From Phyllobacterium phragmitis (GTDB lineage Bacteria > Pseudomonadota > Alphaproteobacteria > Rhizobiales > Rhizobiaceae), in NCBI RefSeq assembly GCF_002980495.1, contig NZ_PVBR01000009.1, positions 124,001-188,000 on the forward strand: a DNA stretch of 64,000 bases, in the 5' to 3' direction. Both the position numbers and the translations under genes were made by a program. Shown one piece after another: positions 32,511-39,908 of this stretch. The notes under the pieces were generated by a model. The model saw only the letters and a list, made by a program, of their open reading frames with translations, ran no database searches and had not been told where the DNA came from. Within the stretch, counting starts at the first letter, position 1. Every line of letters starts with the position of its first letter.

Positions 32511-33650
32511 TTATTCCGGCTGTCCGTCTTTGAGCGAGACGAAATAGCCGGACTTATAGTCGAGCGGCAGGAACCGTTCGTGCAATTCCTTGAACGTCGC
32601 CACCGGATCGAGATCCGCGAATAGATCCGGATGCAGCCATTTCGCCATCTCCTGAATGGCGACGAACTGATAGGGGTTGTTGTAGAACTGGTGCCAGATG
32701 GCGTGAACATTGCCGTCCTTGACCGCTTTCACGTCGGTGAAGGCCGGGCGCTTGGTCAGCGCATCGAGCTTGCGCCGCGCTTCCTTTTCATCCGCGCCAT
32801 AGCCGACGCCGACCCAGTTGCCCCCCGGCACATAGCCCTGCCAGTTGCCGCCGGTGACGATGATCTGATCCGGATTGGAAGCGATGATCTGTTCGGGATT
32901 AACATTGCCGAACGTGCCGGGGATGATGTCCTTAGCGAGATTTACGCCGCCCGCGATCTCGACCATCTTGCCGAAATTCGCGTCGCCGAACGACATGCAG
33001 CAATCGTCGGAATAGCCGCCGGCGCGCTCGATGAACACCAGCGGCTTCGGCGCATTGGATTTCGCCAGGGCATCGGTGACTTCAGCGATATTCTCGGCAC
33101 GGAACTTGACGAATTCCTCGGCTTTGTCTTCCTTGCCGAAGAGCTTCCCAATAATGCGGACGCTCGCTTCCGTGTTTTCCATCGGCTTCTCGCGGAAATC
33201 GATATAGACAAGCGGAATCCCCACCTTGTCGAGCTTCTCGATATATCCGGATTCTTCCGTGGCGGTCTTGGCATCGATGTTCATGATGATGACATCGGGC
33301 TTGAGCGCCACCGCCTGCTCGACATCGAATGTCCCGTCTTTCATGCCGCCGAAGGTCGGCAGCTTGGCAATCTCGGGATACATCTCGAGATATGCCGCAT
33401 AGCTCTCGGGATCGGCCTTCGGCAGATCGTCGCGCCAGCCGACAACACGTTTGAACGGATTGTCGCGGTCGAGAATCGCGGTGAAATAGACCTGGCGCCC
33501 TTCGCCGAGGATGACATGCTCGACCGGAACATTTACCTCGACATCGCGACCAGTTATATCCTTGATCGTAACCTTGTCCGCAAGCGCTCCGCCTGACAGA
33601 ACAGCAAGCCAACTTATGGCAGCAAATGCTGCCTTGCCGAATAACCGCAT
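32511..33650 (-). CDS. Periplasmic binding protein of the iron-type importer (TroA/FepB fold)
   Basis: 379 residues. Signal peptide (MRLFGKAAFAAISWLAVLSG, cleavage after GALA), then VTIKDITGRDVEVNVPVEHV, the standard opening of FecB-type proteins, and DVEQAVALKPDVIIMN. An unusual acidic, cysteine pair SDDCCMSFGDANFG occurs near residue 220. It heads the operon. Upstream lie TGA-N9-TCA and TTTAGAA motifs resembling RirA and Irr boxes. Ligand likely an iron chelate but not determined. Confidence 0.9.
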   Translation of the reverse strand: MRLFGKAAFAAISWLAVLSGGALADKVTIKDITGRDVEVNVPVEHVILGEGRQVYFTAILDRDNPFKRVVGWRDDLPKADPESYAAYLEMYPEIAKLPTFGGMKDGTFDVEQAVALKPDVIIMNIDAKTATEESGYIEKLDKVGIPLVYIDFREKPMENTEASVRIIGKLFGKEDKAEEFVKFRAENIAEVTDALAKSNAPKPLVFIERAGGYSDDCCMSFGDANFGKMVEIAGGVNLAKDIIPGTFGNVNPEQIIASNPDQIIVTGGNWQGYVPGGNWVGVGYGADEKEARRKLDALTKRPAFTDVKAVKDGNVHAIWHQFYNNPYQFVAIQEMAKWLHPDLFADLDPVATFKELHERFLPLDYKSGYFVSLKDGQPE

Positions 33651-33692
33651 CGCTTGTAACTCCGTGGAAAACTGGAGCGTTCTATTATTTCA

Positions 33693-33707
33693 TGAGTTTC
33701 GCAGTCA
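33693..33707. promoter_or_regulatory. Candidate RirA iron-responsive (IRO) box
   Basis: TGAGTTTCGCAGTCA fits the rhizobial RirA-dependent consensus TGA-N9-TCA exactly. It lies 43 bases upstream of the binding-protein ATG on the left and about 50 bases upstream of the methyltransferase gene on the right, within a locally AT-rich promoter region. Confidence 0.5.
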
Positions 33708-33717
33708 ATATATATCT

Positions 33718-33734
33718 TTTAGAACACTTCCAGA
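33718..33734. promoter_or_regulatory. Weak Irr-box (ICE)-like motif
   Basis: TTTAGAACACTTCCAGA resembles the Irr consensus TTTAGAA-N3-TTCTAAA, strong in the left half and weak in the right. Its proximity to the RirA-like site supports iron control, but alone it would not be convincing. Confidence 0.3.
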
Positions 33735-33757
33735 TCATCGGGTCAGTGGAATGAGTG

Positions 33758-34555
33758 ATGGACGGACCAGCAATCGGATCGAATTTTAGCCTCCGCGAAG
33801 AAATCAAGGCCTATTGGTCGCAACGTGCCGCGACGTTCGATCAGTCTCCGGGTCACGAGATATTTTCCGAAGACGAACGAGCCGCGTGGCATCGTCTGAT
33901 CGTCAAGCATCTGGGCAAAGGCAAAGGCCGGACCGCACTCGACCTCGCCAGTGGCACCGGGGTCGTGTCACTGCTGATGGACGATCTCGGCTTCAACGTA
34001 ACGGGGATGGATTGGGCCGAGCCAATGCTCGAACGGGCCCGCGACAAGGCCAAAGGACGCAATATTACGTTTCGGCTCGGTGACGCGGAAAGCACCATGG
34101 AGCCGGACAATCATTATGATGTTATCGTCAACCGCCATCTGGTCTGGACCCTGGTCGATCCGGCAGCGGCCTTTGCCGAATGGCTGCGCATTCTCAAGCC
34201 CGGCGGTTGTATTCTCATTGTCGACGGGGACTTCGTCAACTCCACTCCCCTCGAACGGTTCATCCAAAAACTCTCAAATCTTTCCCGACGACTGGGCTTT
34301 GCACATCCCGAGACGATGCAATTGTCACAGCAACTCATGAAGACCCATCAGAGCATACTCTCGCGGGTCCATTTTTCCGGCGGCGCTCGCGCTGAGGCGG
34401 TTGCGGAGCTCTTGAGAAAAGCAGGGTTTCAGAACATCATCATCGATACCGATATGCGGCGGATTCACCGCGCTCAGGCCAGGCACCTGGGGCTTTGGAA
34501 AGGCCTGGCGCGAGGCACGCAACACCGTTACGCTATCAAGGCGATCAAATTGTAG
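33758..34555 (+). CDS. Class I SAM-dependent methyltransferase
   Basis: 265 residues. Motif I TALDLASGTGVVSLLMDDLG binds SAM; further motifs are GMDWAEPMLERARDKAKGRN, FRLGDAE, and the post-III region LKPGGCILIVDGD. ATG 33758 is used; GTG 33755 immediately before is equivalent. It is divergent from the iron-type importer and shares its promoter region, so it may act on the imported chelate or a metallophore, but no substrate can be read from the sequence. The order methyltransferase plus FecBCD importer recurs in alphaproteobacteria as I recall. Confidence 0.85.
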   Translation: MDGPAIGSNFSLREEIKAYWSQRAATFDQSPGHEIFSEDERAAWHRLIVKHLGKGKGRTALDLASGTGVVSLLMDDLGFNVTGMDWAEPMLERARDKAKGRNITFRLGDAESTMEPDNHYDVIVNRHLVWTLVDPAAAFAEWLRILKPGGCILIVDGDFVNSTPLERFIQKLSNLSRRLGFAHPETMQLSQQLMKTHQSILSRVHFSGGARAEAVAELLRKAGFQNIIIDTDMRRIHRAQARHLGLWKGLARGTQHRYAIKAIKL

Positions 34556-34559
34556 CAAC

Positions 34560-34573
34560 TGTTATCGATAACA
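34560..34573. promoter_or_regulatory. Second copy of the TGTTATCGATAACA palindrome
   Basis: A perfect 14-bp palindrome identical to the core of the operator at 36932-36947. Here it lies between convergent gene ends, 94 bases past the stop of the dehydrogenase at 34667, about 2.4 kb from the other copy, with no gene start next to it. Confidence 0.6.
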
Positions 34574-34666
34574 TTCACGCGATTCGAAGCCCCGAAAAAC
34601 CGGCTAAACTTTGCGAAAAACCGCCGATTTTCCCATGATATCGCATCTATTATCGTGAAGTTTCAC

Positions 34667-35554
34667 TCAAAAAGATGCCGTTTTCCCGTCGAGAAGCCGC
34701 ATCATTTCCGCTGAATCCCTGGGCCCCAGACCAGCCGCGCAGAGCAGGCGGTGGATCTCGACCACCTGCCCGGTCATCGGCAGCGGCGTCTTTGTCTTCA
34801 GCGCGAAGGCTTGCAGTGAATCAAGATCCTTCAGCATATTATCGATCCGGCCGGTCGGTGTGTAATCGCGCGCGGCGAATTTCGCCATGAATTCCTGCAT
34901 GATGCGATTGTCGGCGCGTCCGCCCGCCAGCGCCTGCGGAATGATTGCCGGGTCGACGCCACCGGCTTCTGCAAGCTTCACCGCTTCGGCTACCGCCTGG
35001 AAGGCGACGGCGCAGAAAAGCTGGTTGATGAGCTTTGTGGTCTGGCCGGCACCGCTCGGTCCCATCAGCGTATAGTTGGCGCAAAGGTGCTGCATGACAG
35101 CACGGCCTTGCTCGAAATCCTCGGTGGTGCCGCCGGCCATGATTGTAAGACGCCCTGAAAGCGCGCCGGGTGCGCCGCCGGAAAGCGGGCAGTCCAGCCA
35201 TTTCATGCCGGTCTCGTATGCCAGCTTCGCGGCCATTTCAGCCGTTCCCTTTGGATCGATGGACGACATGTCGATCAAAAGCTTGCCCGGCTTTGCAGCG
35301 ACCGCGACGCCGTCTCTGCCGAACACGGCAGCGCGTACGATATCGGCATGGTTCAGGCTCAAGATTACATAATCGCTTGCCGCGGCAGCCTCCGCCGCCG
35401 AGGCTGCGGCCACCGCGCCCTTGTCGACAAGCGCTCCCACCTTGGACTTATCGAGATCGAATACGCTGATCCGGTTGCCGGTTTCGAGGAGGCGCGTGAC
35501 GATCGCCGAACCCATGATGCCTGCGCCGACGACGGCGATTTTCATTTGTGTCAT
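34667..35554 (-). CDS. 3-hydroxyisobutyrate dehydrogenase-family NAD(P) oxidoreductase
   Basis: 295 residues of the beta-hydroxyacid dehydrogenase family (GarR, MmsB, GND relatives). Dinucleotide motif VVGAGIMGSAIVTRLLETGN at the N-terminus, substrate-binding DCPLSGGAPGALSGRLTIMA, and catalytic Lys in GAGQTTKLINQL. ATG 35554 has GGAGAGGA upstream; the longer frame is an antisense-like shadow of the kinase gene. Last gene of the operon idnO, gluconokinase, this gene; its role could be reduction or oxidation of a sugar-acid breakdown product. Confidence 0.88.
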   Translation of the reverse strand: MTQMKIAVVGAGIMGSAIVTRLLETGNRISVFDLDKSKVGALVDKGAVAAASAAEAAAASDYVILSLNHADIVRAAVFGRDGVAVAAKPGKLLIDMSSIDPKGTAEMAAKLAYETGMKWLDCPLSGGAPGALSGRLTIMAGGTTEDFEQGRAVMQHLCANYTLMGPSGAGQTTKLINQLFCAVAFQAVAEAVKLAEAGGVDPAIIPQALAGGRADNRIMQEFMAKFAARDYTPTGRIDNMLKDLDSLQAFALKTKTPLPMTGQVVEIHRLLCAAGLGPRDSAEMMRLLDGKTASF

Positions 35555-35588
35555 GCGGATAGTCCTCTCCAATGATGGATCGGGAAAT

Positions 35589-36086
35589 TCATCCCCTGCC
35601 GTTCCGCAGCCAAGCCGCGCTGGCTTCGACGATGCGATCGATCGGTTGCGCGATGTCCTGCCGCAACACCAAGGGCTCGCCGGTCGGCGGCTCCAGGGTC
35701 GCAAGCTGGCTGTCGAGCATGGAAAGCGGCATGAAATGACCTGTCCGGTGGCCCATATGCTCGCGCAGGTCGGCTAAACTTCCATCAAGGAAAATGAAGC
35801 AAAGCGACGATCCGGCGGCTTGCCGCAAGCGGTCGCGATAGATTTTCTTCAGCGACGAGCAGGAAATGACGATTCCGTCCGGCGCCTGCGCCAGGCGCGC
35901 GCCGATCAGGTCGAGCCACGGCCAGCGGTCCTCGTCGGTCAATGGAGTGCCCGCCGACATCTTCTCGACATTGCTCCTGGGGTGCAGCGTGTCGCCTTCC
36001 AGAAACGGCAGGCCGAGCTTTTCTGCGAGCGCCGCACCGACCGAAGATTTGCCCGAACCGGAAACGCCCATGACGATGACGCGCAT
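35589..36086 (-). CDS. gntK: Gluconokinase (thermoresistant type)
   Basis: 165 residues. P-loop GVSGSGKSSVG, then EGDTLHPRSNVEKMSAGTPL and DRWPWL, the distinctive gluconokinase substrate segment, and FLDGSLADLREHMGHRTGHF. Phosphorylates D-gluconate to 6-phosphogluconate. ATG 36086 has GAGG upstream and lies just 8 bases after the idnO stop, so the two are coupled; product of IdnO is its substrate. Confidence 0.95.
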   Translation of the reverse strand: MRVIVMGVSGSGKSSVGAALAEKLGLPFLEGDTLHPRSNVEKMSAGTPLTDEDRWPWLDLIGARLAQAPDGIVISCSSLKKIYRDRLRQAAGSSLCFIFLDGSLADLREHMGHRTGHFMPLSMLDSQLATLEPPTGEPLVLRQDIAQPIDRIVEASAAWLRNGRG

Positions 36087-36093
36087 CACGACC

Positions 36094-36861
36094 TCACACG
36101 CTCGCGGTCATGCCGCCGTCAATGTGCAGCACCTGCCCATTGACGAAGGAAGAGGCATCACCCGCCAGGAAGACGGCGGCGCCGACCAGCTCCTCGACAT
36201 CGCCCCAGCGTCCGGCAGGCGTGCGCTTTTCGAGCCAGGCGGAGAATTCCGGATTATCGACCAGCGCCTGGTTGAGCGGCGTCTTGAAATAGCCTGGCGC
36301 GATGGCGTTGATCTGCAGGCCGTATTTTGCCCAGTCCGTCGCCATGCCGCGGGTGAGATTGCGCACCGCACCCTTGGTTGCGGTATAGGGCGCAATCGAG
36401 GGGCGCGCGAGTTCGCTCTGCACCGAGGCGATATTGATGATCTTGCCGCGCCCACGCGCGATCATGTGGCGCGCTACTGCCTGCCCGGCATAAAACACGC
36501 TGGAGATGTTGGTATCGAGAAGCTGCTGCCATTTGTCGACGGGAAAATCCTCGAGCGGTGCGCGAAACTGCATGCCGGCATTGTTGATAAGGATGTCGAT
36601 CGGCCCGATCTCGGCTTCTATCCCATCGATCCCGACCTTGACCGCATCCGCGTCGGTCACGTCGAAAGCGGACGCATGAGCCTTATGGCCGGCCTTTTTC
36701 AGGTCTTCCACTGCAGCTTCGACCTTTTCCGCATTGCGCCCATTGATCACGACCGCCGCGCCGTGTTCCGCCAGCCCGGTCGCCAGCGCCAGGCCTATCC
36801 CCTGGCTCGACCCGGTCACGACGGCAAGCTTGCCCTCTAGATTGAAAAGCGAAAAAGCCAT
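36094..36861 (-). CDS. idnO: Gluconate 5-dehydrogenase (SDR family)
   Basis: 255 residues. NAD(P) motif TGSSQGIG, NNAG motif, and catalytic Ser, Tyr, Lys (Ser in NIASVQSELARPS, YTATK). Closest to IdnO/Ga5DH, which reduces 5-keto-D-gluconate to D-gluconate. It is divergent from idnD, which makes 5-ketogluconate from L-idonate, and followed by gluconokinase, giving the full idonate to 6-phosphogluconate route. Confidence 0.88.
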   Translation of the reverse strand: MAFSLFNLEGKLAVVTGSSQGIGLALATGLAEHGAAVVINGRNAEKVEAAVEDLKKAGHKAHASAFDVTDADAVKVGIDGIEAEIGPIDILINNAGMQFRAPLEDFPVDKWQQLLDTNISSVFYAGQAVARHMIARGRGKIINIASVQSELARPSIAPYTATKGAVRNLTRGMATDWAKYGLQINAIAPGYFKTPLNQALVDNPEFSAWLEKRTPAGRWGDVEELVGAAVFLAGDASSFVNGQVLHIDGGMTASV

Positions 36862-36922
36862 ATCTCCACCCTATCCCTCGTTTATTCTGCCGGTGCAGCA
36901 AAAATTACGGTAGTAATAGCGC

Positions 36923-36951
36923 TTGACATAAATGTTATCGATAACATATGC
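36923..36951 (+). promoter_or_regulatory. idnD promoter with GntR/IdnR-like operator
   Basis: A consensus -35 (TTGACA, 36923-36928) is followed at 36932-36947 by the perfect 16-bp palindrome ATGTTATCGATAACAT, with a weak -10 (ATATGC) 17 bases after the -35. The palindrome closely matches the operator of E. coli LacI-type GntR/IdnR (ATGTTA...TAACAT). Lying between the promoter elements of divergent genes, it should repress or control both. No cognate regulator gene is in the window. Confidence 0.75.
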
Positions 36952-36972
36952 AAGGGCCCTGAGGAGAAGTCG

Positions 36973-38004
36973 ATGGACGCCGTCATTATACATGCCGCCA
37001 AGGATCTGAGAATAGAAGACCGTGAAACCGGCGATATGAAGCCCGGGCAGGTCGAGATCGCCATCCAGGCGGGGGGCATATGCGGGTCGGACCTGCATTA
37101 TTATCATCATGGCGGCTTCGGGACAATTCGGCTGCGCGAACCGATGATCCTCGGTCATGAGGTGGCGGGAACCGTCGTGGCGCTGGGCCAGGGCGTCAGC
37201 GGACTTGCGATCGGCGACCGCGTCGCCGTTTCGCCGTCACGGCCCTGCAATGCGTGCGAATATTGCCTCAAGGGCCAGCAGAACCACTGCTTGAACATGC
37301 GCTTTTACGGCAGCGCCATGCCGATGCCGCATATCCAGGGCGCGTTCCGGCAAAGGCTGATCGCCGAGAGCTGGCAGTGCCACAAGGTGGCCGACGGCAT
37401 CTCGATTAACGAGGCAGCGTTTGCAGAACCCCTCGCCGTCACCCTCCACGCCGTCAACAGAGCGGGCTCGCTCCTCGGCAAGCGCGTGCTGGTGACAGGC
37501 TGTGGCCCTATCGGCGCGCTCACCATCATCGCGGCCCGTGCTCACGGCGCCCGCGAGATCGTCGCAACCGATGTGATGGACGCCGTTCTAGAGAAGGCGC
37601 GCGAGATCGGCGCCGACCGCACCATCAATGTCGCCGAGCACGGCGAAGAACTGGCGGCCTACACGGCGAACAAAGGCTATTTCGACGTGATGTTCGAAGC
37701 GTCGGGGAACGAGCGGGCCGTGCGCGCCGGCATGGAGGTGCTGCGGCCGCGCGGCATTCTCGTGCAACTGGGTTTGGGCGGCGACATTTCCATTCCCCAA
37801 AATCTCGTTGTCTCCAGGGAAATCGACATGCGCGGCTCCTTCCGCTTTCACGAGGAGTTCGGGCTTGCCGTCGATCTTATCAACCGCCGGACTGTCGACA
37901 TGAAACCGCTCCTGAGCGAGATCTTCGACTTCAGGGATGCCGTCGCGGCCTTCGAAGCCGCCGGAGACCGCAGCCGGTCGATGAAGGTTCAGTTGTCGTT
38001 TTGA
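36973..38004 (+). CDS. idnD: L-idonate 5-dehydrogenase (zinc-dependent MDR)
   Basis: 343 residues. Catalytic zinc site GGICGSDLHYYHHGG and GHEVAG, structural zinc cysteines CNACEYCLKGQQNHC, Rossmann motif VTGCGPIGALTIIAARAHGA. The YYHHGGFG signature is typical of L-idonate 5-dehydrogenases. Oxidises L-idonate to 5-keto-D-gluconate. ATG 36973 follows GAGGAGA. Divergent from idnO across the palindromic operator. Confidence 0.92.
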   Translation: MDAVIIHAAKDLRIEDRETGDMKPGQVEIAIQAGGICGSDLHYYHHGGFGTIRLREPMILGHEVAGTVVALGQGVSGLAIGDRVAVSPSRPCNACEYCLKGQQNHCLNMRFYGSAMPMPHIQGAFRQRLIAESWQCHKVADGISINEAAFAEPLAVTLHAVNRAGSLLGKRVLVTGCGPIGALTIIAARAHGAREIVATDVMDAVLEKAREIGADRTINVAEHGEELAAYTANKGYFDVMFEASGNERAVRAGMEVLRPRGILVQLGLGGDISIPQNLVVSREIDMRGSFRFHEEFGLAVDLINRRTVDMKPLLSEIFDFRDAVAAFEAAGDRSRSMKVQLSF

Positions 38005-38048
38005 AGCGGAACATCTGTTGGCGACCTGCGAGGATGCGCGGTAGCCGT

Positions 38049-39908
38049 CTATCTCTGATGTGCCCGTATTACCATCAGGAAGGCATCCCCATAGCGTTCC
38101 AATTTTGACTGGCCGACACCGGAGATGCCGAGGAGCGTGTCGCGGCTCGTCGGGCGGTCGGTGGCGAAAGCAACCAGTGTCGTGTCCGGAAAGACGACAT
38201 AGGGCGGGACCGAAAGCTCCTTGGCGATCGCCATGCGAGCGGCGCGCAATGCCTCGAAAAGCTCCATATCAGCCCCTTCCAGCGCGGATTTGCCACTTGC
38301 CGAACGCGATGATGCTGATCTCGAGGCCTTTCCCGTCGTTGGCCGGTCCTTGCGGAAGCGAACCTCGCGTTCGCGCTTGAAGACGGCGCGAGCGTCCGGC
38401 TCCAGCTTCAGCGCGCCGAAAGCCGCATGATCGACGCTGACGAAGCCGGCGGCGAGAAGCTGGCGGTAGACCGACTGCCAGGTTTTGGACGGAATATCCT
38501 TGCCGACACCGAAAACCGGCATGTCAATATGGCCGAAGCGTGTGGTCTTTTCGTTTTCATTGCCGAGCAGCACGTCGATGAGATGGCCGGTGCCGAAGCG
38601 CTCGCCGGTCCGATAGATCGCTGCCAATGCCTTGATGGCGGCGTCCGTTCCGTCCCAGGTCTCGACCGGCTTGAGGCAGGTGTCGCAGTTGCCGCAATTG
38701 CCCGCATGCGCTTCGCCGAAATGGGCAAGGACCGCCTGCCGGCGGCAACCGGGGGTTTCGCAGATGGCGAGCAGCGCATTGAGCTTGGCGCGTTCGACAC
38801 GTTTGATATCGTCGCCCGAATTGCCTTCGTCGATCATTCGGCCGCGCTGGATGACATCGGCCATGCCATAGGCCATCCAGACGTCGGACGGCAATCCGTC
38901 GCGGCCGGCACGGCCGGTTTCCTGATAATAGGCCTCGACGGAGCCAGGCAGGTCGAGATGCGCGACATAGCGCACGTTCGGTTTGTCGATGCCCATGCCG
39001 AAGGCGACGGTGGCGACGAGGCAAAGATCCTCCTCCTTCAGGAAAGCATCCTGGTTGGCGTCGCGAACCGCGCGGTCCATGCCGGCATGATAGGCGAGAG
39101 AGCGTATTCCTTGGCCGTTCAGCCATTTGGCCGTGTCCTCGACCTTGGCGCGCGACAGGCAATAGACGATGCCGCTTGAGCCCTTGTGGCGCGACAAAAA
39201 GCGCAGGAGCTGCTGGCGCGGCTGATCGCGCTCGACGATTTCATAGGCGATGTTCGGCCTGTCGAACGACGTCGTGAAAACCTCCGCCGAATGCAAACCA
39301 AGCTTGTCGATGATGTCTTCGCGGGTATGCGGATCGGCCGTCGCCGTCAGCGCCATACGCGGCACGCCGGGATACGCCTCGGCGAGATGGCCGAGTTCGC
39401 GATATTCCGGGCGGAAATCATGTCCCCATTGGGAAACGCAATGCGCCTCGTCTATGGCGAACAATGCAATCCTGGCATTGCGGATCATGTCCTTGAAGGC
39501 AGGTGTTACAATGCGCTCGGGCGTCACATAGAGAAGATCGAGCTCACCGTTGGCGATCGCCCGGCGGACATCCAAAAGCTCTTCGCGCGTCAGCGAGGAA
39601 TTCAGCGCAGCGGCGCACACACCCAGCTGTTTCAGCGCTTCCACCTGATCGCGCATCAGCGCGATCAACGGGGAAACGACGATTCCGACGCCATCGCGAC
39701 AGAGCGCCGGAATTTGATAACACAGCGATTTTCCGGCACCGGTCGGAAACAGAACAACGGCATCTTCACCCGACACGACCCGTTCGACGACATCAGCCTG
39801 TTTGCCGCGGAAGGCGGGATAACCGTAGACGTGCTTCAGGATGGCAAGTGGATTTTTCGCGACCTCGTTGTCAAACAGCGGATCGAAGCGGGTTTGCATC
39901 TGCACCAT
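38049..39908 (-). CDS. recQ: ATP-dependent DNA helicase RecQ
   Basis: 619 residues. Helicase motifs [15 protein letters not shown] (I), [20 protein letters not shown] (II and aromatic loop), GRAGRDG (VI); RQC zinc cysteines in [20 protein letters not shown] followed by NCGNCDTC; C-terminal HRDC domain ending [12 protein letters not shown]. Full length for alphaproteobacterial RecQ. Repairs and restarts forks; a housekeeping gene among catabolic ones. Convergent with idnD. Confidence 0.97.

Follow-up and report, generated by a model that had tools for sequence, protein, structure and literature searches.

Enterobacterial gluconate-idonate regulons of the GntR/IdnR type comprise idnD, idnO and gntK as targets of a LacI-family regulator, with permeases of the GntT/GntU type as transporters. 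Their operators are nearly identical to a palindrome found here in a stretch of 64,000 nucleotides of Phyllobacterium phragmitis (contig NZ_PVBR01000009.1), which we refer to as the window. The window shares the targets and a candidate regulator of the LacI family with the enterobacterial systems. It differs from them in that this candidate remains below the GntR and IdnR cut-offs, in that the transporters in the window's genome and its relatives are of the ABC or TRAP type, and in the addition of what is probably a stranded operator.

PMC10450161 quotes a GntR site ATGTTACCGATAACAG and, beside it, the consensus ATGTTACCCGTAACAT. PMC4052901 describes reconstructed LacI-family regulons, Rhizobiales included, with 7 groups for gluconate and idonate, and the regulon of the inner site described below may already be part of that work. 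Among publication titles on LacI regulons for gluconate in Rhizobiales, on looping by GntR and on stranded operators, none concerned the present case; the 14-mer itself is printed in a paper on Lactobacillus crispatus.

Two clusters from the Rhizobiales are the nearest points of comparison. In Rhizobium and Mesorhizobium, a LacI gene, idnD and a hydroxyacid dehydrogenase gene are separated by a site from the divergent idnO-gntK-garR, which is followed by a second site, rbsACB and a small gene. The window has the same order idnO-gntK-garR and likewise two sites, mostly 2.3-2.4 kb apart in these relatives; in contrast to them, no ABC operon follows its second site, its candidate LacI gene lies on another contig, and its idnD faces idnO directly. 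The idn cluster of Phyllobacterium (L102, L107, L125, L149) has the closest garR (84-85% identity), the identical 35 bp around the inner operator, the same type of regulator (79-81%) and an SBP_bac_3 transporter. Unlike the window, this cluster is compact, garR lies on the other strand behind hadh (a label for a gene matching glyoxylate reductase models below cut-off), and no site follows garR.

Two copies of one palindrome around the idn operon

The 14-mer TGTTATCGATAACA occurs exactly at 34560-34573 (outer or distal copy) and at 36933-36946 (inner copy), 2,373 bp apart from start to start; together with a flanking A and T, the inner copy forms a 16-bp palindrome at 36932-36947. The features of the region are as follows.

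33755..34555, plus strand: methyltransferase-like gene (best model 65.1 bits, below cut-off)
34560..34573, no strand assigned: distal operator copy TGTTATCGATAACA, whose counterpart in relatives is the operator of the rbsA operon
34583..34588, minus strand: TTCGAA, probable decayed -35 region of a lost operon (TTGAC in relatives)
34667..35554, minus strand: garR-like NAD-binding reductase that closes the operon (uncertain start codon)
35589..36089, minus strand: gntK, gluconokinase (TIGR01313, 183.1 bits, cut-off 113.75 exceeded)
36094..36861, minus strand: idnO-like SDR of the gluconate 5-dehydrogenase type (PRK07523 SDR subfamily, over cut-off)
36923..36928, plus strand: TTGACA, likely -35 region towards idnD, read directly and adjoining the inner operator
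36933..36946, no strand assigned: inner operator TGTTATCGATAACA in the divergent promoter region of idnO (minus strand, start 36861) and idnD (plus strand, start 36973)
36973..38004, plus strand: idnD-like zinc dehydrogenase of the L-idonate 5-dehydrogenase type (PRK09880, 378 bits, cut-off 469 missed)

The L-idonate 5-dehydrogenase model is the best match of idnD, though below cut-off. For idnO, the gluconate 5-dehydrogenase model ranks second with 346.4 bits (below the cut-off of 408), and the garR-like protein scores 212.8 bits with the 2-hydroxy-3-oxopropionate reductase model (below 340.75). The genes idnO, gntK and garR form a leftward operon, with idnD divergent. An earlier note on this DNA had named the operon idn-gntK; the operon stands, refined by the garR-like third gene that the note left unnamed.

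The same note had proposed that two copies of a GntR/IdnR-type palindrome bracket the operon. Both copies are indeed exact, and a search of the window's genome (G000, 5,625,008 bases) returned them as the only exact ones. The type also fits: 13 of 14 bases equal TGTTACCGATAACA, the core of the GntR site in PMC10450161, although only 11 of 14 equal the consensus core TGTTACCCGTAACA given there.

Chance recurrence of the palindrome as the source of both copies was rejected on the following counts and is next to impossible. From Markov models (order 1-4) fitted to the window, 0.004-0.019 exact copies per genome are expected, against two observed within 2.4 kb. With up to three mismatches, the window holds five matches (two of them exact) versus a shuffle mean of 0.94. 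As a control we used the pattern read backwards, which is palindromic too and has the same composition. Up to one mismatch, five places were found genome-wide versus none for the control; up to two mismatches, there were 11 places on one strand versus 5. This roughly two-fold excess is the one figure that leaves room for chance, and the two-mismatch places are therefore largely noise. Outside the window and the regulator locus described below, a one-mismatch place lies at C1:327647, and further imperfect places with up to two mismatches lie at C3:282337, C6:124514 and C9:192336 and on C8, C21 and C23. Of 297 sampled genomes from the family, among them the window's own, 41 contained the exact 14-mer and none contained the control. 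Around the family places, 40 stretches from 38 genomes were inspected (the window's genome and G004 were treated separately, and G026 was left out), and 34 of them contain an idnO-like gene of at least 66% identity; at this identity it was not found in L063, L064, L070, L072, L074 and L088.

Conservation of the inner site was assessed in the 45 loci that had been found by the garR protein (see below) and have an idnO-like match of at least 60% identity. In 42 of them, the 260 bp upstream of idnO contain a site with up to two mismatches, and in 36 it is exact. The inner-type site is missing in L141, L142 and L148, of which L141 and L142 carry an exact site farther upstream, in front of idnD. 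L083, L107, L125 and L149 share the 35 bp at 36920-36954 without a difference, and L102 does so one base further on (36921-36955); these five loci are of the Phyllobacterium type, L083 and L149 seemingly being one contig. The TTGACA at 36923-36928 falls inside this identical stretch and is not flagged by the promoter scan. Judged by this conservation, we take the inner site to be the working, conserved operator of the divergent idnO-gntK-garR and idnD.

The outer site and the gene behind garR in relatives

The outer site begins 4 bp after the stop of the methyltransferase-like gene (34555) and lies 93 bp past the garR stop (codon end 34667), between two convergent 3' ends. As the earlier note had stated, it has no gene start beside it: inspection of the open reading frames gave no credible one. 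The sole ORF there, 77 aa with a TTG start (34325-34558, minus strand), abuts the outer site, runs antisense to the methyltransferase-like gene without a visible ribosome site and is most likely a mechanical ORF. A small RNA at the outer site was rejected, because no Rfam match reached the gathering threshold in 33000-39000 and the fold of 115 nt was unremarkable (z -1.26). An intrinsic terminator between the outer site and garR was also rejected, the scan having found none. A hidden promoter was likewise considered; the scan gave none, but this counts for little, as the inner promoter went unflagged too.

Relatives' loci were collected by means of the garR protein and not by means of the site, which gave 79 loci. 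The first 50 (at least 58% identity) were used, leaving out the more distant or short matches L151-L179; 49 were readable, L148 being unreadable at a contig end. In 36 of these 49 loci, garR is followed directly by rbsA, with which a sugar ABC operon on that strand begins, and the site is located between garR and rbsA in 35 of the 36 (31 exact, 4 with one or two mismatches). L143 (5213-5432) is the sole locus with rbsA behind garR and no site in the gap. The remaining 13 loci have no site behind garR, the best match showing 6-8 mismatches, and the next recognised gene there is gntK (4), a small 'mut' gene (4), hadh (2), idnD (1), a distant idnO (1) or none (1). The contrast of 35/36 with 0/13 is partly trivial, since the gap behind garR measures merely 0-36 bp in six of the 13 (L101, L102, L107, L125, L126, L149), and the association of site and rbsA (Fisher p = 5e-11) gives no true probability because the loci are kin, many of them from Rhizobium and Mesorhizobium. 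Five further relatives that were found by the site (L073, L080, L081, L086, L087) show the same layout. Absence of the distal copy in relatives, which the earlier note had named as the observation that would count against a role, holds only where relatives have no transporter at that place.

In the relatives, TTGAC precedes the site by 14-16 bp in 32 of the 35 loci (26-28 bp in the other three); it stands at the window's offset of 15 bp in 19 and one base nearer in 12. The base after the site is T in 33 of 35, completing TAACAT as a -10 region, and A in two. This spacing and the following T place the relatives' site over the spacer and the -10 region of the rbsA promoter. The window has TTCGA instead of TTGAC at the 15-bp offset, and G after the site, hence TAACAG for TAACAT. 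The best hexamer pair at the outer site scores 7/12, compared with 9-10/12 in the five relatives scored, and the promoter here looks decayed. The distal region, unlike the inner one, is not among the best 40 matches listed against other loci, so that its homology rests on position and order.

We consider the outer site to be, with good probability, the stranded operator of a lost sugar ABC transporter operon. This makes specific the earlier note's suggestion of a relic of a lost gene and lends it good support, as the relatives have an ABC operon with the same site at this place and the window's genome does not (see below). Calculated survival of an intact 14-mer is 0.006% at 50% change per free site, 0.7% at 30% and 4% at 20%. 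The perfect 14-mer could mean that the operon disappeared only recently and selection removed the antisense promoter; alternatively, the site still matters.

In the latter case, the distal site would have been kept because a bound repressor still works there, either as the anchor of a 2.37-kb loop or as a roadblock or insulator between convergent transcripts. The 14-mer is intact while the surrounding promoter elements differ from those of the relatives, the site lies between two 3' ends that face each other, and nothing terminator-like was detected between these genes, all of which favors retention. On the other hand, no conserved role is visible, given that all 13 loci without rbsA lack a post-garR site (six have less than 40 bp of room), and in relatives the pair of sites simply marks two promoters. 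On balance, we regard retention as unlikely. Rather improbable, too, is that the operator was reused after loss of the operon, as a promoterless repressor site selected as a gluconate-sensitive roadblock or loop anchor; if true, it would be a regulatory site that outlived its gene and gained a function.

The transporter operon and a candidate regulator

The operon behind garR in the relatives encodes an ATPase, a permease and a binding protein, plus a small gene of ~110 aa. The name rbsACB is our label, as the scores of the ATPase with sugar ABC ATPase models stay under the cut-offs and the binding protein gave one weak match. Two copies of the small gene, here labelled 'mutarot' or 'mut_C3', were compared with Pfam and neither gave a match. 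In the window's genome (99.11% complete, 139 contigs), no match to the transporter's SBP was found at E <= 1e-3 and the best match to its permease reached 32%, compared with 81% and 82% identity, respectively, in the congener G004. From these searches, the sugar ABC operon that follows garR elsewhere is judged to be absent from this genome.

The genome contains 18 LacI-domain matches. The search for a LacI-type regulator, suggested by the earlier note, yielded as best candidate a LacI-family protein on contig C3 (G000:C3:199001-200065; PF00356, 71.4 bits, cut-off 27 exceeded), whose gene lies beside two one-mismatch sites, TGATATCGATAACA and TGTTATCGAAAACA. Its neighbours are gluconate 2-dehydrogenase genes, a small 'mut' gene and an SBP_bac_3 transporter. 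The curated GntR/IdnR equivalog models were not passed (297.5/400, 200.7/500 and 173.2/433 bits), and by these models the protein belongs to the LacI family with GntR as its nearest member. Relatives of 79-83% identity in Phyllobacterium and Falsochrobactrum share a cluster with idnO, idnD and garR and with such sites, either exact or with one or two mismatches. No congener has the protein above 45%; in G001 and G005 its best relatives reach 42-43%. This GntR/IdnR-like protein is the likely regulator of the window's sites. With 355 residues in total and a sensor domain reaching to residue 345, the protein has about ten residues left where the tetramer tail of a LacI-type protein would lie. This short remainder offers no obvious room for such a tail and speaks against a kept loop. 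The DNA looping suggested by the earlier note thus found no positive support here, nor in the 13 non-rbsA loci, which have no site behind garR.

Next to the candidate regulator, L008:3004-6779 (contig C3) contains gluconate 2-dehydrogenase-like genes: a GMC oxidoreductase, a subunit 3 and a protein in which a CxxCH motif was recognised by eye. This arrangement suggests that periplasmic gluconate oxidation may belong to the same regulon.

For the binding protein, repression, ligand, takeover of uptake and order of events, we infer the following. One LacI-family, GntR/IdnR-like repressor would bind both copies, and for gluconate/idonate breakdown the inner copy would control idnO-gntK-garR and the divergent idnD. 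The outer copy would have begun as the operator of a second operon starting right behind garR, as in Rhizobium and Mesorhizobium, namely the rbsACB-like sugar ABC transporter with the small ~110-aa gene. This operon would have been lost in the window's lineage with a break within ~4 bp of the site, at the present end of the methyltransferase-like gene, and uptake was probably taken over by the SBP_bac_3-type transporter that lies beside the C3 regulator gene and has a site of this kind. The regulon would then be caught between two states, with one type of transporter missing and its switch remaining. Such a stranded operator would be a warning to regulon predictors that not every good site has a target.

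Ancestral order and congeners

Quick trees were built for garR and idnO. In the garR tree, the window groups with Phyllobacterium (support 94) and, with L150, next to Falsochrobactrum (82), and this group is set among mostly rbsA-type loci (85). None of the six Phyllobacterium/Falsochrobactrum loci, the nearest by garR, has the garR-site-rbsA layout. The garR tree would suit an ancestral garR-site-rbsA order that was lost in the window's group. In the idnO tree, the window joins G001 and G005 (88), then Falsochrobactrum (92) and Phyllobacterium (81), followed by Martelella loci without rbsA behind garR (93). As the idnO tree joins loci of the non-rbsA type, the trees do not settle the ancestral order.

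The groupings with Phyllobacterium and Falsochrobactrum in both trees, and the SBP_bac_3 transporter beside the regulator on contig C3, favor a further origin of the distal site. It could be left from the time before this block lay on C3, from a Falsochrobactrum-like unit where idnO-garR and hadh-ABC-SBP3 run towards each other and the sites stand between SBP3 and the side of the regulator. However, the C3 block retains two sites of its own, so that a third one would imply a duplication, the Falsochrobactrum sites lie ~4 kb from garR, and the window keeps the rbsA-type order idnO-gntK-garR-site. This origin appears very unlikely. Because of the idnO tree and the six negative loci with cramped gaps, our confidence in the lost sugar ABC operon was slightly lowered, and both a kept function and the Falsochrobactrum-like unit were raised.

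In G001 and G005, idnO-gntK adjoins a methyltransferase-like gene, whose 3' end lies next to gntK, and garR is missing there; neither genome has a site with up to one mismatch anywhere. With the methyltransferase-like gene beside gntK in these congeners and neither garR nor the site, it is conceivable that the window may have gained garR plus the site instead of keeping them.

Exact sites occur in one of the five other congeners, G004, whose cluster is accompanied by a LacI-type gene and in which sites precede a TRAP operon and an ABC operon. The TRAP operon, first seen in G004, was dropped as a candidate for the lost operon, because the site directly behind garR goes with rbsA. In the plasmid collection, the best 25 of 720 and 15 of 125 records were Rhizobium clusters, and in none of the records did a single place span 80% of the query.

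Across the relatives, the same operator stands before three transporter classes: TRAP dctQMP, SBP_bac_3-type ABC and RbsACB-like ABC (L007:5299, L078:7405, L090:10720; L083, L102, L149; L103-L106 and others). This is read as transporter swapping under a constant operator. In the congener G001 (L020:9098-10141), a different LacI-family regulator with the helix letters SRPTVSK lies beside idnO-gntK and the palindrome is lacking; there, the regulator may have been exchanged along with its operator.
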